Shown one piece after another: positions 55,084 to 62,655 of a stretch of DNA of 64,000 nucleotides. A program made the position numbers and the translations under genes. Source of the stretch: Anaeromyxobacter diazotrophicus (GTDB taxonomy: Bacteria > Myxococcota > Myxococcia > Myxococcales > Anaeromyxobacteraceae). The stretch spans positions 248,001-312,000 of the forward strand of contig NZ_BJTG01000008.1 in assembly GCF_013340205.1 (NCBI RefSeq), read 5' to 3'. The first letter of the stretch is position 1. Every line of letters begins with the position of its first letter. The notes below the pieces were generated by a model. The model had not been told where the DNA came from. It made no database searches and saw only the letters and a list, made by a program, of their open reading frames with translations.

Positions 55084-56499
55084 ATGGGCGCGATCCGCCG
55101 GTTCCGGGGTCCGGCACTCCACTTGCTACCGGGCCGCCCCGTGCACCTCCCCCTCCCGCGAGCGCTCGCGCTCCTCGCCGCCCTGGCCGCGGCGGTGCCG
55201 CCCCCGGCGCGCGCCGCGGCGCCCGCCGTCCCGGAGCCGCTCGCCCTGCCCCCGCGCCTCACGCTCGAGGAGGCCTCGCGGCTCTTCCGGGAGCGGGGGC
55301 TCGATCTCCTGCTCGCCGACGCGGCGGTGGCCTCGGCCGAGGGCGATCTGTCCGCCGCCGGCGCGGTGGCGAACCCGCAGCTCTCGGCGTCGTACGGGCG
55401 CTCGCGCACGTTCGGCGACTGCGTCGACGTGCAGGGCAACCCGTCGGCGTGCGGCTGGCTCCCGCAGCCGCAGTACGGGCTCGGCCTCTCCGACTCGGGC
55501 GCCGTCTTCGACGTCCTCACCGGCAAGCGCGGCCTGCGCGTCGACGCCGCCCGCGCCGCGCTCCAGGCGGCGCGCGCCTCCCGGGCCGACGCGGAGCGGA
55601 CGGTCGGCGCGCAGGTGCGGCAACAGGTGGCGCAGGTGGTGCTGGCGCAGGAGTCCTCGCGCTTCGCCCGCGAGGTGGCGGCGGCGCAGGCGAGCGCGCT
55701 CGAGCTCACCCGCACCCGCGAGGCGGCGGGCGCGATCAGCGAGGCGGACGTCGCGCGGGTGGAGGTGGCGAAGCTCGAGGCCGACCAGGCGGTGGACGCG
55801 GCGGCGCAAGCGCTCCGCGACGCGCGCGCCCAGCTCGCCTTCCTGCTCGGCGCGCGCGGCGAGGTGCCGGAGTTCGAGGTGGACGCGCCGGACCTTGCGC
55901 AGGGGCGCGAGCCGCCCGCGCTCGCCGGCGCGACCGCCCCCGCCCTGCTGGCGCGCGCGGCGGAGCGGCGCCCGGACCTGCACGCGGCGCGGCTCCAGCG
56001 CGAGCGCGCCGAGGCCGCGCTGGCGCTGGCGCGCCGCCAGCGGATCCCGGACGTGACCCTCTCCCTCAACTACGCCCAGCAGGGCACGACCAACCAGGCG
56101 GTGACGCCGCCCACCTTCACGCTCGGTCTCGCCTTGCCGCTGCCGCTCTTCTACCAGCAGCAGGGCGAGATCCGGCGCGCCGAGGCGGACGTCTCGACCC
56201 AGGCGCTCCAGGCGACGAAGCTCGAGGCCCAGGTCGCCGCGGACGTCGCGACGGGACTCGCGGACTACGCCGCCTCCGGCGCGCTGGTGCGGCGCATGGA
56301 GGGGGGCCTGCTGGCGCGCGCGGCGCGGGCCCGCGACCTCGTCCAGGTGCAGTACCAGAAGGGCGCCGCTTCGCTCCTCGACTACCTCGACGCGCAGCGC
56401 ACCTTCGTCGCCACCCGCGTCGAGTACCACCAGGACCTCGCGGCCTACTGGACCGCCGTGTTCAAGCTGGAGGCGGCGGTGGGGGAGGAGCTGCGATGA
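55084..56499 (+). CDS. TolC/CzcC-family outer membrane channel of a metal RND efflux system
   Basis: A 471-residue outer membrane efflux protein. After a signal sequence (LALLAALAAAVPPPARA) it has two OEP repeats; GAISEADVARVEVAKLEADQ and YQKGAASLLDYLDAQRTFVA are the coiled hairpin motifs. The frame starts at 55084; a GTG at 55141 would give a neater signal peptide. It overlaps the adaptor gene by four bases (ATGA), and the pump gene follows. Confidence 0.9.
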   Translation: MGAIRRFRGPALHLLPGRPVHLPLPRALALLAALAAAVPPPARAAAPAVPEPLALPPRLTLEEASRLFRERGLDLLLADAAVASAEGDLSAAGAVANPQLSASYGRSRTFGDCVDVQGNPSACGWLPQPQYGLGLSDSGAVFDVLTGKRGLRVDAARAALQAARASRADAERTVGAQVRQQVAQVVLAQESSRFAREVAAAQASALELTRTREAAGAISEADVARVEVAKLEADQAVDAAAQALRDARAQLAFLLGARGEVPEFEVDAPDLAQGREPPALAGATAPALLARAAERRPDLHAARLQRERAEAALALARRQRIPDVTLSLNYAQQGTTNQAVTPPTFTLGLALPLPLFYQQQGEIRRAEADVSTQALQATKLEAQVAADVATGLADYAASGALVRRMEGGLLARAARARDLVQVQYQKGAASLLDYLDAQRTFVATRVEYHQDLAAYWTAVFKLEAAVGEELR

Positions 56500-58655
56500 G
56501 AGGGACGGTGCTCACGGCGCTGCTCGGCCTCGCCCTCGCCTGCCGCGAAGGCGGGCCGGCGCGCGGCGCGGCGCCCCAGGGCGACGAGCTCACCCTCGAC
56601 GAGGCGCGGCTCGACCGCGGCGAGGCGCAGCTGGCCGTCGCCACGGAGGGGGAGCTCCGGCAGGCGGTGGCCGCCGCGGGCCGGGTCGCCTTCGACGACC
56701 AGCGCGTCCAGCACGTCCTCTCGCCGGTGGCCGGCCGCGTCACCCGCGTCCTCGCCCACGCGGGCCAGCGCGTGGCGAGGGGCACCCCGCTCCTCACCCT
56801 GGCCTCGCCGGAGGTGGGGGCGGCGCTCGCCGACCTCCTCAAGGCGCAGTCCGACCTGGCGCAGGCGGGCGCGGAGCTGGCGCGGCAGCGCCGGCTGGTG
56901 GGCGCCCACGCCGGCCCGGCGCGCGACCTCGAGGCCGCCGAGGACGCGCACCGCAAGGCGGAGGCGGAGCTGGCGCGGGCCCGCCAGCGGGCGGCGCTGC
57001 TGCGGGCGGGCGACGTCGACGCGGTGACGCAGGAGCTGACGCTCAAGGCGGCGCTCCCGGGCGAGGTCCTGGCGCGGGCGGTGAGCCCGGGCCTGGAGGT
57101 GCAGGGCGCCTCCTCCGGCACCCCGGTCGAGCTGTTCACGGTGGGCGACATCTCGCGGGTCTGGATCCTGGCCGACGTGGCCGAGGGCGACCTGGGCCGC
57201 GTCCGGGCCGGCGCCGCCGCCACCGTGCGCGTGCCCGCCTGGCCCGGCCGGAGCTTCGCCGGCACCGTGCAGTGGGTGGCCGGCACCCTCGACCCCGCGC
57301 TCCGCACCGGGCGCGTCCGGATCGCGCTCGACAACGCCGACCGGGCGCTCGAGCCCGAGATGCTGGCGCAGGTCGCGATCGACGCCCCGCCGCTGCGCGC
57401 GCTGACCGTCCCCCGCGCCGCGCTCACGACCGTCGAGGGCGAGAGCTTCGCCTACGTGAGCGAGGGCCCGCCGCAGGACGGCCGCCAGCGCTTCCGGCGG
57501 CGGCGCGTGCGGGCGAGCGGGGATCCGGCGAGCCCGCTGGCCGTGATCGAGGGGGGGCTCGCGGCGGGGGAGCGGCTCCTGGTGGAGCAGCCCACGACCC
57601 GCGAGCCCGGCGCCGGCGAGGTGCGGATCTCGGAGCACCAGGCCGAGCACGCGGGGATCCGGCTGCAGGCGGCGGGGGAGCAGGACCTGGACGACACGCT
57701 GGTGGCCGGAGGCCGCATCGCCTTCGACGATCTGCGCGTCGCGCACGTCTTCTCGCCGGTGACGGGGCGGGTCACCCGCGTGCTGGCCGAGCCGGGCCGC
57801 CACGTGAAGCGGGGCGACCCGCTCGTCGCCCTCGTCTCGCCCGAGGTGGGCAGCGCCTTCGCGGACGCCGTCAAGGCGGAGGCGGACGAGGTGGCGGCCC
57901 GGCACGAGCTCACGCGCCAGCGCGAGCTCGTCGAGGCGCACGCCGGCGCGCGCAAGGACCTGGAGGCAGCGGAGGCCGTGTGGCGCCGCGCGCAGGCCGA
58001 GCTGGCGCGCGCCCGGCAGAAGACCCGGCTGCTCTCGACGGGCAGCTTCGACACCGTCACCCAGGAGTACACCCTGCGCAGCCCCGTCGACGGGGAGGTG
58101 GTGGCGCGCGCCGCCGCGCGGGGGCTCGAGGTGCAGGGCCAGTGGTCCGGCGCCGGCGCGCCGGTCGAGCTCTTCACGGTGGGAGCGCTCGATCCACTCT
58201 GGGTGGTGGGCGACGTCTACGAGATGGACCTGCCCCACGTCCGGACCGGCAGCGCGGTCGAGGTCCGCGTGCCGGCCTTCCCCGACCGCACCTTCCGCGG
58301 CAAGGTGGACTGGGTCTCCGCCGTCCTCGATCCAGCCACCCGGACCGCGAAGGTGCGATGCGCCATCGCGAACCCCGGGCACTTGCTGCGCCCGGACATG
58401 GCGCCCGTCCTCACCATCGCGCTGCCGAGCCACCGCCACCTGTCCGTGCCGCGCGACGCGGTGCTGCGCCTGGGCGACGAGACGATCGTGTTCGTCGCCT
58501 CCGGCCGGACGCCGGACGGCCAGCTCGCCTACCGCCGCCGCAAGGTCGTCCCCGGCGAGGACCGCCCGGGCGGCTCCGTCCCCATCCTCGAGGGCCTGGT
58601 GCCCGGCGAGCAGGTGGTGGTCTCGGGCGGCATCTTCCTCGTCGGCCTCCTCTAG
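56496..58655 (+). CDS. Double-length periplasmic adaptor (two tandem CusB/CzcB modules) of a metal RND efflux system
   Basis: A 719-residue membrane-fusion lipoprotein (lipobox LALAC). It contains two tandem adaptor modules, about residues 30-370 and 375-719, each with the full set: AAGRVAFDDQRVQHVLSPVA / AGGRIAFDDLRVAHVFSPVT lipoyl strands, a coiled hairpin (ARDLEAAEDAHRKAEAEL / RKDLEAAEAVWRRAQAEL), VELFTVGDISRVWI / VELFTVGALDPLWV barrel strands and a membrane-proximal end. A normal adaptor has one module of 350-400 residues. One frame, no break. Probably a duplication acting as two protomers in one chain. Confidence 0.92.
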   Translation: MRGTVLTALLGLALACREGGPARGAAPQGDELTLDEARLDRGEAQLAVATEGELRQAVAAAGRVAFDDQRVQHVLSPVAGRVTRVLAHAGQRVARGTPLLTLASPEVGAALADLLKAQSDLAQAGAELARQRRLVGAHAGPARDLEAAEDAHRKAEAELARARQRAALLRAGDVDAVTQELTLKAALPGEVLARAVSPGLEVQGASSGTPVELFTVGDISRVWILADVAEGDLGRVRAGAAATVRVPAWPGRSFAGTVQWVAGTLDPALRTGRVRIALDNADRALEPEMLAQVAIDAPPLRALTVPRAALTTVEGESFAYVSEGPPQDGRQRFRRRRVRASGDPASPLAVIEGGLAAGERLLVEQPTTREPGAGEVRISEHQAEHAGIRLQAAGEQDLDDTLVAGGRIAFDDLRVAHVFSPVTGRVTRVLAEPGRHVKRGDPLVALVSPEVGSAFADAVKAEADEVAARHELTRQRELVEAHAGARKDLEAAEAVWRRAQAELARARQKTRLLSTGSFDTVTQEYTLRSPVDGEVVARAAARGLEVQGQWSGAGAPVELFTVGALDPLWVVGDVYEMDLPHVRTGSAVEVRVPAFPDRTFRGKVDWVSAVLDPATRTAKVRCAIANPGHLLRPDMAPVLTIALPSHRHLSVPRDAVLRLGDETIVFVASGRTPDGQLAYRRRKVVPGEDRPGGSVPILEGLVPGEQVVVSGGIFLVGLL

Positions 58656-58667
58656 GACCACGCACCC

Positions 58668-61600
58668 ATGGTCAAGCGCATCGTCGCCTTCGCCCTGCAG
58701 AACCGCGCGCTCGTGGTGCTGCTCGCGCTCGTGCTGCTGGTCGGCGGCCTGGTCGCCTTCGAGCAGCTCCCGGTGGAGGCGTACCCGAACCCGGTCCCGC
58801 CCATGGTCGAGGTCATCGCCCAGCCGCCGGGCTGGAGCGCCGAGGAGGTGGAGCGGTACGTCACCATCCCGCTGGAGATCGGGCTCTCGGGGATGCCGGG
58901 CCTCGACCACGTCCGGTCCCAGTCGCTGTACGCGCTCACGGACGTGAAGTGCTACTTCAAGTGGGGCACCCGCTACGAGGACGCGCGGCAGGAGGTGATC
59001 AACCGGCTGCAGTTCACGCAGCTCCCGGCCGGCGTGCAGGCCCAGCTCTCGCCGTGGAACGCCATCGGCGAGGTCTACCGCTTCAACGTGCGCGGCAAGG
59101 GCTACTCGCTGCAGGAGCTCAAGACCGCCGCCGACTGGATCCTGGTCCGCCAGTTCAAGCAGGTGCCGGGGGTGGCCGACGTGGTCACCTTCGGCGGCGA
59201 GACGAAGGAGTACCACGTCGAGGTCGACCCGAACCGCCTGCGCGCCCGGGGCGTCACCCTCGCCCAGCTGACGCAGGCGCTCTCCAGCGCCAACCAGAAC
59301 GTGGGCGGTCAGCGCCTGACGCTCGGCGAGCAGTCCTACACCATCCGCGGGGTGGGGCTCATCCGCTCGCCGCGGGACATCGAGGACGCGGTGGTGCTGG
59401 CGCAGAAGGGCGTGCCGGTGCGGGTGCGCGACGTGGCCACGGTGGCCGTGGGGCACGCGCCGCGCCTCGGGCTCGTCGGGCGCGACGACGACTCCGACGT
59501 GGTGCAGGGCACCGTCCTCATGCGCTACGGCGGCGAGACCAAGGCCACGCTGCGCGGCATCTACGACCGGGTCGAGTATGTCCGGAGGAACCACCTCCTG
59601 CCGCCCGGCATGGACATCGAGCCGTACTACGATCGCGCCACGCTCATCCGCGTCACCACCCGCACCGTGCTCGAGAACCTCCTCATCGGCATGGTGCTCG
59701 TCACCCTCGTGCTGGTGGCCTTCCTGGGGAGCGTGCGGGCCGCGCTCATCACCGCCCTCAACGTCCCGCTCGCGCTGCTGGTCGCGTTCATCGGCATGGT
59801 GGCGACCGGCACGCCGGCGAACCTCATCTCCCTGGGCGCGGTGGACTTCGGGATCGTCGTCGACTCGACCGTCATCATGGTCGAGAACGTCTTCCGCCAC
59901 CTCGGCGCGCACGGCTTCGGCGGCATCTTCGAGCGGGTCCGGTCGGCGGCGGGCGAGGTCGGCCGCCCGATGGCGTTCTCCACGCTCATCATCGGGGTGG
60001 CCTTCCTGCCGCTCTTCACGATGACCGGCGTCTCGGGCGTCATCTTCACGCCCATGGCGGTCACCTACGCCTTCGCCATCGGCGGCGCCCTCCTGCTGGC
60101 GCTCACGCTCACCCCGGTCCTCGTCTCGCGCTTCGTGCCGGCCAAGGCGGAGGAGAAGGACACCGTGGTGATGCGCGCGCTGCAGCGCGCCTACCGGCCG
60201 CTCTTCGACGTGGCGCTGCGCTGGCCGAGGCTGGGGCTGCTCGCCCCGGTGCTGGTCATCGGGCTGTGCGTGGCGCTCTTCCCGCTGCTCGGCAGCGAGT
60301 ACATGCCGAAGCTGGAGGAGGGCAACTTCTGGATCCGGGCCAGCCTGCCCATGTCGGTGTCGATGGAGCAGTCCTCGCGCCTGGTCGGCCGCATGCGCGC
60401 CATCCTGAAGCGGAAGCCCGAGGTGGTGACGGTGGTGTCGCAGCTCGGCCGCCCCGACGACGGCACCGACCTGGCCGGCTTCCAGAACATCGAGCTGTTC
60501 GCGCCGCTCCGGCCGTACGGCGAGTGGCCCCGCGGGGTGACCAAGGAGCAGCTCACCGAGGAGCTCGGCAAGGAGCTCGAGGAGGAGTTCCCGGGGGTGG
60601 TGTTCAACTTCTCGCAGTACCTGTCGGACAACGTCGAGGAGGCGCTCTCCGGCGTGAAGGGCGAGAACAGCGTCAAGGTGAAGGGGCCCGACATCGACGG
60701 CAACGAGGCGACCGCCGCGCGCCTGGTCGACGTCATGGAGCACGTGCGCGGCGTGAAGGACCTGGGCCTCTTCCCCACCCTGGGCCAGCCGTCGATCAAG
60801 ATCGTGCCGGACCGCGAGCGGTGCGGGCGCTACGGGCTGAACACGGGCGACGTGGAGGCGGTGGTGGCGGCGGCGGTGGGCGGCCAGGCGGTGACGCAGG
60901 TGTTCGAGGGCGAGAAGAGCTTCGCGCTCACCGTGCGCTGGCAGGAGCCGTACCGGTCGTCCCTCGGCGCCATCCGCGCGATCGGCGTCGCCACGCCGGA
61001 CGGCGGGCAGGTCCCGCTCGGGCAGCTGGCGCAGGTGAGCGAGGAGAGCGGGCCCTCCGTCATCTACCGCGAGGACGGCAGCCGCTACTCGCCGGTCAAG
61101 TTCTCCATCCGCGGCCGGGACCTGGGCTCGACGGTGGACGAGGCACAGCGCCAGATCGCGGACCACGTGCGGCTGCCGGCGGGCGCGCACCTCGAGTGGG
61201 CGGGACAGATCAACGAGCTCAACGAGGCGATGGGGCGGCTGGCCGTCATCATCCCCCTCACGCTGCTCCTCATCGCCCTGCTGGTCTACGCGGCGGTGAA
61301 GACCTGGCTCGACACCGCGGTGGTCCTCATCTCGATCCCGGTGGCGTGCCTGGGGGGCATCGTGGCGCTCCTCGTCGCGCGCGAGCCCTTCTCCGCCTCG
61401 GCCGCCATGGGGTTCGTCTCCGTCTTCGGGATCGCCATCCAGGACGCCATCCTGGTCGTCACCTACGCGCAGCGGCAGTGGGAGAACGGCAAGACGCTCT
61501 CGGACGGCGCCCGCGCGGCCGCGGAGCAGCAGTTCCGCCCCGGGCTCATGGCGACGCTCACCGCCACGCTGGGCCTCTTGCCGGCTGCGCTCTCCAACGC

Positions 61601-61778
61601 CATCGGCGCGCAGGCCCAGAAGCCGCTCGCCATCGTGGTCATCGGCGGCTCGCTGGCGCTGGCCGGCCTCACCCGCATCGTCCAGCCGCCGCTGCTCGTG
61701 GTCGCGCACCAGCTCGGCGACCGGTTCCGCGCGCGGCGTCCGGGGCGCCGCCGCGAGGAGGAGGACGCGGCGGCGTAG
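58668..61778 (+). CDS. CusA/CzcA family heavy-metal RND efflux pump
   Basis: A 1036-residue inner membrane proton/metal antiporter with twelve spans and two large periplasmic loops. The heavy-metal signature GAVDFGIVVDSTVIMVEN is near residues 393-410, with PMAFSTLIIGVAFLPLF following. The metal cannot be predicted reliably. It is the last gene of the channel-adaptor-pump operon, 12 bases after the adaptor, with tight spacing throughout. Confidence 0.94.
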   Translation: MVKRIVAFALQNRALVVLLALVLLVGGLVAFEQLPVEAYPNPVPPMVEVIAQPPGWSAEEVERYVTIPLEIGLSGMPGLDHVRSQSLYALTDVKCYFKWGTRYEDARQEVINRLQFTQLPAGVQAQLSPWNAIGEVYRFNVRGKGYSLQELKTAADWILVRQFKQVPGVADVVTFGGETKEYHVEVDPNRLRARGVTLAQLTQALSSANQNVGGQRLTLGEQSYTIRGVGLIRSPRDIEDAVVLAQKGVPVRVRDVATVAVGHAPRLGLVGRDDDSDVVQGTVLMRYGGETKATLRGIYDRVEYVRRNHLLPPGMDIEPYYDRATLIRVTTRTVLENLLIGMVLVTLVLVAFLGSVRAALITALNVPLALLVAFIGMVATGTPANLISLGAVDFGIVVDSTVIMVENVFRHLGAHGFGGIFERVRSAAGEVGRPMAFSTLIIGVAFLPLFTMTGVSGVIFTPMAVTYAFAIGGALLLALTLTPVLVSRFVPAKAEEKDTVVMRALQRAYRPLFDVALRWPRLGLLAPVLVIGLCVALFPLLGSEYMPKLEEGNFWIRASLPMSVSMEQSSRLVGRMRAILKRKPEVVTVVSQLGRPDDGTDLAGFQNIELFAPLRPYGEWPRGVTKEQLTEELGKELEEEFPGVVFNFSQYLSDNVEEALSGVKGENSVKVKGPDIDGNEATAARLVDVMEHVRGVKDLGLFPTLGQPSIKIVPDRERCGRYGLNTGDVEAVVAAAVGGQAVTQVFEGEKSFALTVRWQEPYRSSLGAIRAIGVATPDGGQVPLGQLAQVSEESGPSVIYREDGSRYSPVKFSIRGRDLGSTVDEAQRQIADHVRLPAGAHLEWAGQINELNEAMGRLAVIIPLTLLLIALLVYAAVKTWLDTAVVLISIPVACLGGIVALLVAREPFSASAAMGFVSVFGIAIQDAILVVTYAQRQWENGKTLSDGARAAAEQQFRPGLMATLTATLGLLPAALSNAIGAQAQKPLAIVVIGGSLALAGLTRIVQPPLLVVAHQLGDRFRARRPGRRREEEDAAA

Positions 61779-61892: not shown

Positions 61893-62138
61893 ATGCATCT
61901 GGGAATGGGTGAGATGTTGGTCGTGCTGGTGATCGCGCTGCTCGTGTTCGGCCCCACCAAGGTGCCGCAGCTCGGGGAGTCGCTCGGGAAGGGCATCCGC
62001 AACTTCAAGAAGGCGGTGAACGAGCCAGAGGCGGAGAGCGTTCCCGTCCCGGTTGCGCCGCAGCCCCAGCTCGCGCCGAGCGCGGCGGTCTCCCAGGCCG
62101 CGCCGCCCGCGACCGTCCGCCCGACCGAGGACGCCTGA
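61893..62138 (+). CDS. tatA: TatA/TatE family twin-arginine translocase component
   Basis: An 81-residue protein with the TatA membrane segment (GEMLVVLVIALLVFGPTKVP) and amphipathic helix (LGESLGKGIRNFKKAVN), then an acidic Pro/Val/Ala tail. Start ATG 61893 has GAGGAG nine bases upstream. TatB and TatC are not adjacent. It supports export of Tat substrates such as the split-Soret-type protein in this window. Confidence 0.93.
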   Translation: MHLGMGEMLVVLVIALLVFGPTKVPQLGESLGKGIRNFKKAVNEPEAESVPVPVAPQPQLAPSAAVSQAAPPATVRPTEDA

Positions 62139-62226
62139 GCGGAAGATGGGCACGCGGATGCAGCTACCTCGGACCAGGGGCAGATCGCCCGCGCAACTTG
62201 GGCCGAGCTCTTCGGTTGGAGCCGGC

Positions 62227-62655
62227 ATGCTCACCCCGGCCGACGACCAGATCACTTCGCTGCTCCTGCGCCGGGTGATCCGCTACCAGACCACCGGCTT
62301 CGGGCTGATGATCCTCCTGCTGTTCGCGGACGACCTCGCCTGCCTCTGGAGGGGGCAGCCGGTACCTCGCTGGGAGCTGGTCGAGCTGGCGGCGGCCTGC
62401 GCGGTCGGGGCGCTCTCGTTCGCGATGACGCGGCGGCTGACCCCTCGCATCCAGCTGCTCGAGGGGCTCGTCTGCATCTGCATGCACTGCAAGCGCGTGC
62501 GGAGCGACGGCGACTGGGTCCAGGTCGAGCGGTACGTGGCCGCGCGGTCGCCCACGCAGTTCTCGCACGGACTCTGCCCGGAGTGCTACGCGCGCAAGTA
62601 CGAGCGCGAGGACCCGCGCCAGGCGGCGCCGCCCGGCGGCCACCGCGCCGCTTGA
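62227..62655 (+). CDS. Membrane protein with a C-terminal CxxC/CxxC domain
   Basis: A 142-residue protein. Two predicted membrane spans (GFGLMILLLFADDLACLW and LAAACAVGALSFAMTR) precede a small domain with CICMHCKRVRSDGDW and HGLCPECYARKY, probably zinc-binding. The CMHCKRVRxxxxxWxxVExY segment resembles short domains often found at the end of bacterial regulators. ATG 62227, with TTGGAG upstream, is preferred over earlier starts at 62146 and 62158. Function unknown. Confidence 0.72.
   Translation: MLTPADDQITSLLLRRVIRYQTTGFGLMILLLFADDLACLWRGQPVPRWELVELAAACAVGALSFAMTRRLTPRIQLLEGLVCICMHCKRVRSDGDWVQVERYVAARSPTQFSHGLCPECYARKYEREDPRQAAPPGGHRAA

Follow-up and report, generated by a model that had tools for sequence, protein, structure and literature searches.

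In the analysed stretch of 64,000 nucleotides from Anaeromyxobacter diazotrophicus (contig NZ_BJTG01000008.1, positions 248,001 to 312,000; referred to as the window), an operon was found that encodes an outer-membrane channel, an adaptor and a pump of the resistance-nodulation-division (RND) type. The adaptor gene contains two complete adaptor modules within one uninterrupted frame of 719 codons. An alignment of residues 1-372 with residues 373-719 gave 166 identical amino acids out of 336 (49%) with 4 gaps (E 8e-99), and on the DNA level the two halves are 70% identical over 661 bases. The GC content at third codon positions is 0.99 in the first and 0.97 in the second half of the gene, as expected for coding DNA of a GC-rich genome. 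The Pfam models HlyD_D23 and HlyD_3 and the NCBIfam model RND_mfp (TIGR01730) each match the chain in two stretches; the entire protein reaches 239.6 bits with TIGR01730 and the modules alone reach 111.6 and 133.6 bits, both above the cut-off of 94.9. The protein belongs to RND_mfp by its score, by its full set of structural elements and by the pump and channel partners encoded in the operon. The cut-offs of the CzcB/NccB subfamily (TIGR00999, 211.2 versus 319.3 bits) and of CusB (NF007303, 123.2 versus 390 bits) are not reached. The source genome (G000) gave 22 matches to RND_mfp at E <= 1e-8, which correspond to about 19 adaptor frames, of which one is a tandem; in the other two frames with a pair of matches, these are two parts of a single model.

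An AlphaFold2 model of the tandem chain, built with an alignment of 30 rows, has a mean predicted local distance difference test score (pLDDT) of 90.5. Both modules were built confidently, and the same succession of strands with a two-helix hairpin is present in each half. The nearest solved structure to the model is ZneB (Foldseek E 7.2e-24; PDB 3lnn), which each module also matches by sequence across nearly its entire length. In VIA-align comparisons, module 2 of the model was aligned with ZneB over 332 residues (Z 21.6, root-mean-square deviation 12.5), and model residues 37-365, representing module 1, with MacA (5nik_D) over 308 residues (Z 18.6, root-mean-square deviation 6.1). Among the matches listed, no solved structure spans both modules; chain P of PDB 6vej (695 aa), which we take to be an engineered TriA-TriB fusion, is not among them and was obtained among the sequence matches of the adaptor. 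A sequence-only reading of the window had proposed two complete modules of the CusB/CzcB type in one frame, and the half-against-half alignment, the Pfam and NCBIfam matches and the model all bear this out. The features of the locus are listed in Table 1.

Table 1. Position of the tandem adaptor gene, its parts and its operon partners in the window.
Feature	Position	Strand	Description
Outer-membrane channel (TolC/OEP family)	55084..56499	+	First gene of the operon; Pfam OEP PF02321, 169.9 bits, two stretches
Tandem adaptor gene	56496-58655	+	719 aa, uninterrupted frame
Lipoprotein signal (predicted)	56496..56543	+	Residues 1-16, ends at Cys16 (LALAC)
Adaptor module 1	56586..57584	+	Residues 31-363; runs from the membrane-proximal part via barrel and lipoyl elements to the hairpin and returns
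Module 1 helical hairpin	56808..57008	+	Residues 105-171 (105-136, 142-171), AlphaFold2 model
Residue 133, beside the hairpin tip	56892..56894	+	Module 2 equivalent: 477
Residue 229, barrel	57180..57182	+	Module 2 equivalent: 575
Linker	57585..57620	+	Residues 364-375; modelled with low confidence at 367-372 (pLDDT < 50, beyond the N-terminus found only here); length steady, sequence varies
Adaptor module 2	57621..58652	+	Residues 376-719, including the C-terminal hydrophobic helix 712-718
Module 2 helical hairpin	57840..58040	+	Residues 449-515 (449-480, 486-515), AlphaFold2 model
RND pump (CusA/CzcA heavy-metal efflux family)	58668..61778	+	1036 aa; TIGR00914, ACR_tran

The two modules differ at their ends. 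With its N-terminal signal and Cys16 the chain is a lipoprotein adaptor, for which export and lipidation at this residue are predicted; a Cys occupies the equivalent place in all seven tandem proteins compared, six of which fit the lipobox pattern used. The only other Cys of the chain is residue 622 within module 2. As the sequence-only reading had stated, the lipobox is confined to module 1, and module 2 has neither a signal peptide nor the N-terminal stretch. The hydrophobic tail at the C-terminus is present in all eight second modules and in most single adaptors, and module 1 is devoid of it, as judged on an alignment without trimming at the module borders. An adaptor has both its ends in the membrane-proximal domain, which makes it natural for the end of one to be joined to the start of the next between neighbours in the ring. 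The linkers of the seven tandem proteins comprise 12, 12, 12, 13, 12, 12 and 12 residues and share no sequence, as would be expected of a tether with a set reach; a conserved cleavage site was not seen in these linkers. Separate translation of module 2 was considered as well. In-frame GTG codons occur near the junction, with no or weak matches to a ribosome-binding site (the best one, ahead of codon 363, comprises 4 bases), and a protein started there would be without an export signal, which makes this possibility unlikely.

Matches to the adaptor at E <= 1e-60 were found in 22 of 195 Myxococcota genomes. The double module in one intact frame is present in seven of the 195 (G000, G004, G012, G018, G021, G044 and G051), a number which may be low as five candidates were scored per genome. 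These seven are spread over two families of the same order, with five of the 24 genomes of the source genome's own family and two genomes of another. Fourteen of the matching genomes carry a single module, and in the remaining one (G049) the gene is ended by the contig end, its module falling outside both tandem clades described below. The relatives with a single module are more distant, and one of these (G014, L013) belongs to the same family. The source genome shares its family with Anaeromyxobacter oryzisoli, and the one genus-mate searched gave no match at E <= 1e-60. The presence of both modules in all Anaeromyxobacter homologues, suggested as a check by the earlier reading, holds for the close homologues of the tandem clade wherever the contig is complete; the gene itself is patchy within the family. 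Six complete tandem proteins are encoded on contigs of different assemblies, five metagenome bins and the isolate A. oryzisoli SG63. In G012 a further module 1 and a further module 2 were detected, each at a contig end, and these probably represent another tandem gene that the assembly has split. The bin BP5.bin31 contains two halves at contig ends (L041:1-1027 and L057:2221-3273), a probable second tandem adaptor beside a complete one.

Outside the phylum the searches returned little. A first scan of genome contigs with a single protein query detected no relative, and of the six records obtained from plasmids none reached 80% coverage of the query. With E <= 1e-90 and two candidates scored per genome, there were no matches in 398 genomes of the phylum to which the Methylophilus locus belongs, and three matches, all of half length, among the 396 genomes searched in the phylum of the Acidobacteria locus; these two scans speak weakly for an absence of the tandem there. 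A contig titled Euryarchaeota archaeon (L058) bears a channel-adaptor-pump operon closely akin to the myxobacterial ones; this contig is probably mis-binned.

Comparison of the modules among relatives, also suggested by the earlier reading, revealed that the two modules are 43-50% alike within tandem proteins. The mean identity within module 1 (0.526) is about that within module 2 (0.546), and module 1 is accordingly not decaying. In a tree of 47 module sequences, the eight first modules form one clade (support 100/99) and the eight second modules form a clade of their own (99/97); the branching within the two is nearly parallel. The pumps of the eight tandem operons likewise form one clade in a tree of 31 pumps (Shimodaira-Hasegawa-like approximate likelihood ratio test 99), with the same main groups. 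The module-1 clade, the module-2 clade and the matching pump clade show that the tandem arose once, before the tandem lineages split, and was inherited together with the pump while both halves were kept. A separate duplication in the group of L036, L037 and L039 was rejected, as forcing both modules of this group together gave a p-value of 0.0014 in the approximately unbiased (AU) test. Modules 1 and 2 are one group in the best tree with weak support (79/43), and trees which join the single adaptors L054, L056 and L059 with either module were not rejected (AU p-values 0.509 and 0.498); the fusion may thus have united either duplicates of a single gene or adaptors that differed from each other beforehand. 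A further arrangement was observed at L051:4983-7194, where two separate adaptor genes lie back to back ahead of one RND pump, each with its own lipobox. The two L051 adaptors are each other's nearest kin (100/99 in the 47-row tree), which indicates an independent duplication and not an ancestor of the fusion.

The stop codon of the channel gene overlaps the start of the adaptor gene (ATGA), and a GGAGG resembling a ribosome-binding site precedes the adaptor start. Of the eight loci with tandem-derived adaptors, six are complete and two are ended by contig ends; the pump gene comes next in all seven that reach that far, and the channel gene precedes the adaptor in six of the eight. In close relatives an ordinary single adaptor occupies the same operon position. 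The pump scores 825.8 bits with TIGR00914 (cut-off 701.45) and 789.1 bits with ACR_tran, and lies above the cut-off of the CusA/CzcA family, which places it among the heavy-metal efflux (HME) RND pumps. According to the literature, the consensus of HME1 and HME2 pumps in the fourth membrane helix is DFGX3DGAX3VEN, and the two Asp and the Glu were reported to be needed in CzcA (PMC3637150). The motif of our pump is DFGIVVDSTVIMVEN, in which both Asp and the Glu are retained and ST stands in place of GA. Due to this replacement the pump was filed neither as HME1 nor as HME2; since it keeps the three residues needed in CzcA, its substrate is likely a heavy-metal cation. Directly downstream of the pump gene the window contains an ORF for a small TatA/B-like protein (61896-62138, forward strand; Pfam TatA_B_E, 64.8 bits). 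Next comes an ORF (62221-62655, forward strand) whose small product has membrane-like stretches and, at its C-terminus, a Cys-rich tail resembling that of some signalling proteins; no Pfam match was found for it.

The sequence-only reading had described parallel motifs in both modules. The order of the elements is indeed the same, whereas for the hairpin motif, proposed as EAAE, an R-x3-L pattern near the tip fits better. The Arg of this pattern is retained in both modules, followed by Leu, Ile or Met at the Leu position. We take the residues of the pattern to correspond to certain residues of AcrA. Those AcrA residues are treated as channel-contacting (PMC8300762). At other sites the modules have diverged, most clearly at residues 133 and 229. 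The position of residue 133 is acidic in none of the eight first modules, in all eight second modules and in 24 of 26 single or paired adaptors. Similarly, the position of residue 229 is aromatic or His in 0/8 first modules, where it is small or Asn, in 8/8 second modules and in 26/26 single or paired adaptors. Conversely, a Trp near the N-terminus is shared by 25 of the 26 and by seven of the eight first modules and is missing from all eight second modules. A count by residue classes, which is descriptive as it was made after viewing the hairpin and barrel alignment, yielded seven columns in which module 1 departs from the state common to module 2 and the single adaptors, and four in which module 2 is the one that departs. 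A strict majority rule left five divergent columns, with the single adaptors like module 1 in two and like module 2 in three. As the rows are related and the columns were picked after viewing, these counts are hints; they suggest that the two modules may show early signs of a division of labour.

Adaptors are described to act as dimers within a trimer of dimers, tandem AcrA fusions complement, and natural fused dimers such as DSY0927 are known (PMC4446572, PMC4338810). For AcrAB-TolC, two types of AcrA protomers were distinguished whose AcrB contacts are described separately, and in the apo form the quasi-sixfold AcrA-TolC interface is lowered to threefold (PMC5404916). We consider it probable that the adaptor of A. 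diazotrophicus is a naturally fused dimer serving a three-part heavy-metal efflux pump, with three chains giving a ring of six modules. The chain would be exported and lipidated once, at Cys16, and each module would fold as a full adaptor. As the 12-residue linker would join the membrane-proximal end of one module to that of the next, the modules should have to take neighbouring places on the pump. The six-module ring would then be built by three chains arranged around the RND trimer at a chain stoichiometry of 3:3:3, and the hairpins would meet the outer-membrane channel. The arrangement would go back to one duplication and fusion in the ancestor of one myxobacterial operon lineage and have been inherited with the pump. 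With each module always next to the same neighbours, the two have begun to diverge in the barrel and at the tip of the hairpin, and each module probably suits one of two non-equivalent adaptor positions. The earlier proposal that three fused chains could suffice for six adaptors is thereby supported as the likeliest reading, which fits the literature and the constant length of the linker. Only tentatively do we go further and suggest that the two positions may be permanently assigned to the halves of one chain. The ring might then have a fixed alternating order, and each layer might consist of three chains that are duplicated within themselves. The substitutions found at tip and barrel in module 1 alone might mark the residues that distinguish position I from position II.

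Several observations weigh against this interpretation. With a predicted template modelling score of 0.44 the model does not predict how the modules lie relative to each other. The differences between the modules are few (seven plus four columns), and for each of them a single substitution at the base of the respective clade would be sufficient. Moreover, it is common for related operons to have just a single adaptor, and a fusion is therefore not needed for this pump type. The single-module relatives at the same operon position and a pump without an obvious need for a fused adaptor would also agree with six or three tandem chains assembling via one module, the other being free or redundant. 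This seems unlikely, as a free copy is expected to decay, but both modules keep all elements and are similarly conserved, in proteins where the two are only 43-50% alike.

Proteolysis of the exported chain might instead yield two independent adaptors, in which case the fusion would be a means of co-production, a TriA/TriB-like pair from one gene; a cut that always separates the two had been named by the sequence-only reading as a ground for refutation. The L051 operon with its two separate lipoprotein adaptors ahead of one pump and the low model confidence of the linker would be in line with such a cut. However, a linker without conserved motif and with hardly varying length is the opposite of the trace of a protease site, and module 2 would be left without a lipid anchor, so that we regard this course of events as quite improbable. 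Adjacent adaptor genes as in L051 could in principle have been joined by an error of assembly or sequencing, and a frameshift of this kind had likewise been named by the sequence-only reading as an observation that would overturn it. The same joined frame with near-equal linker length occurs, however, in seven proteins from different assemblies, including that of the isolate A. oryzisoli SG63; the error is thus rejected, with a negligible chance of being real. The fused dimer remains the preferred explanation and can be set against the known systems. ZneB, CzcB and CusB resemble our adaptor in the match of its modules to ZneB and in the type of operon with a CusA/CzcA pump, but they have one module per chain where two are joined here. 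DSY0927 of Desulfitobacterium hafniense is likewise a natural chain of two adaptors, whose halves belong to different types (the first lacks a coiled coil) and whose partner is an ABC transporter (PMC4446572, PMC4338810). In contrast, the protein described here has like halves with hairpins in both, and its operon also encodes an RND pump and a channel of the outer membrane; it is hence like DSY0927 in principle and not a member of the same family. TriABC-OpmH of Pseudomonas aeruginosa combines two non-identical adaptors in non-equivalent roles with one RND pump (PMC13328181), and for different roles of the two modules described here the sequences give hints of divergence. The TriABC adaptors are separate proteins from separate genes and 36% alike. 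The engineered AcrA-AcrA fusion has the same design of two adaptors in one chain and complements (PMC4446572); it is laboratory-made, whereas the present one is natural and conserved. Since a natural fusion is in print and engineered ones work, fused adaptors as such are already known. In the open-licence papers searched, no description was found of a natural tandem adaptor that serves an RND pump; what would be new here is a natural chain of two like adaptors, each with a hairpin, that is encoded in an RND operon and has been kept across genera.

Most pumps use six identical adaptors, so that the jobs of the two positions cannot be mutated singly. A natural chain of fixed order with diverged halves would allow each adaptor position to be tested alone. 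The tandem adaptor of the myxobacteria backs the view of a trimer of dimers from evolution instead of engineering, and for structural biologists it may provide an adaptor with built-in stoichiometry.

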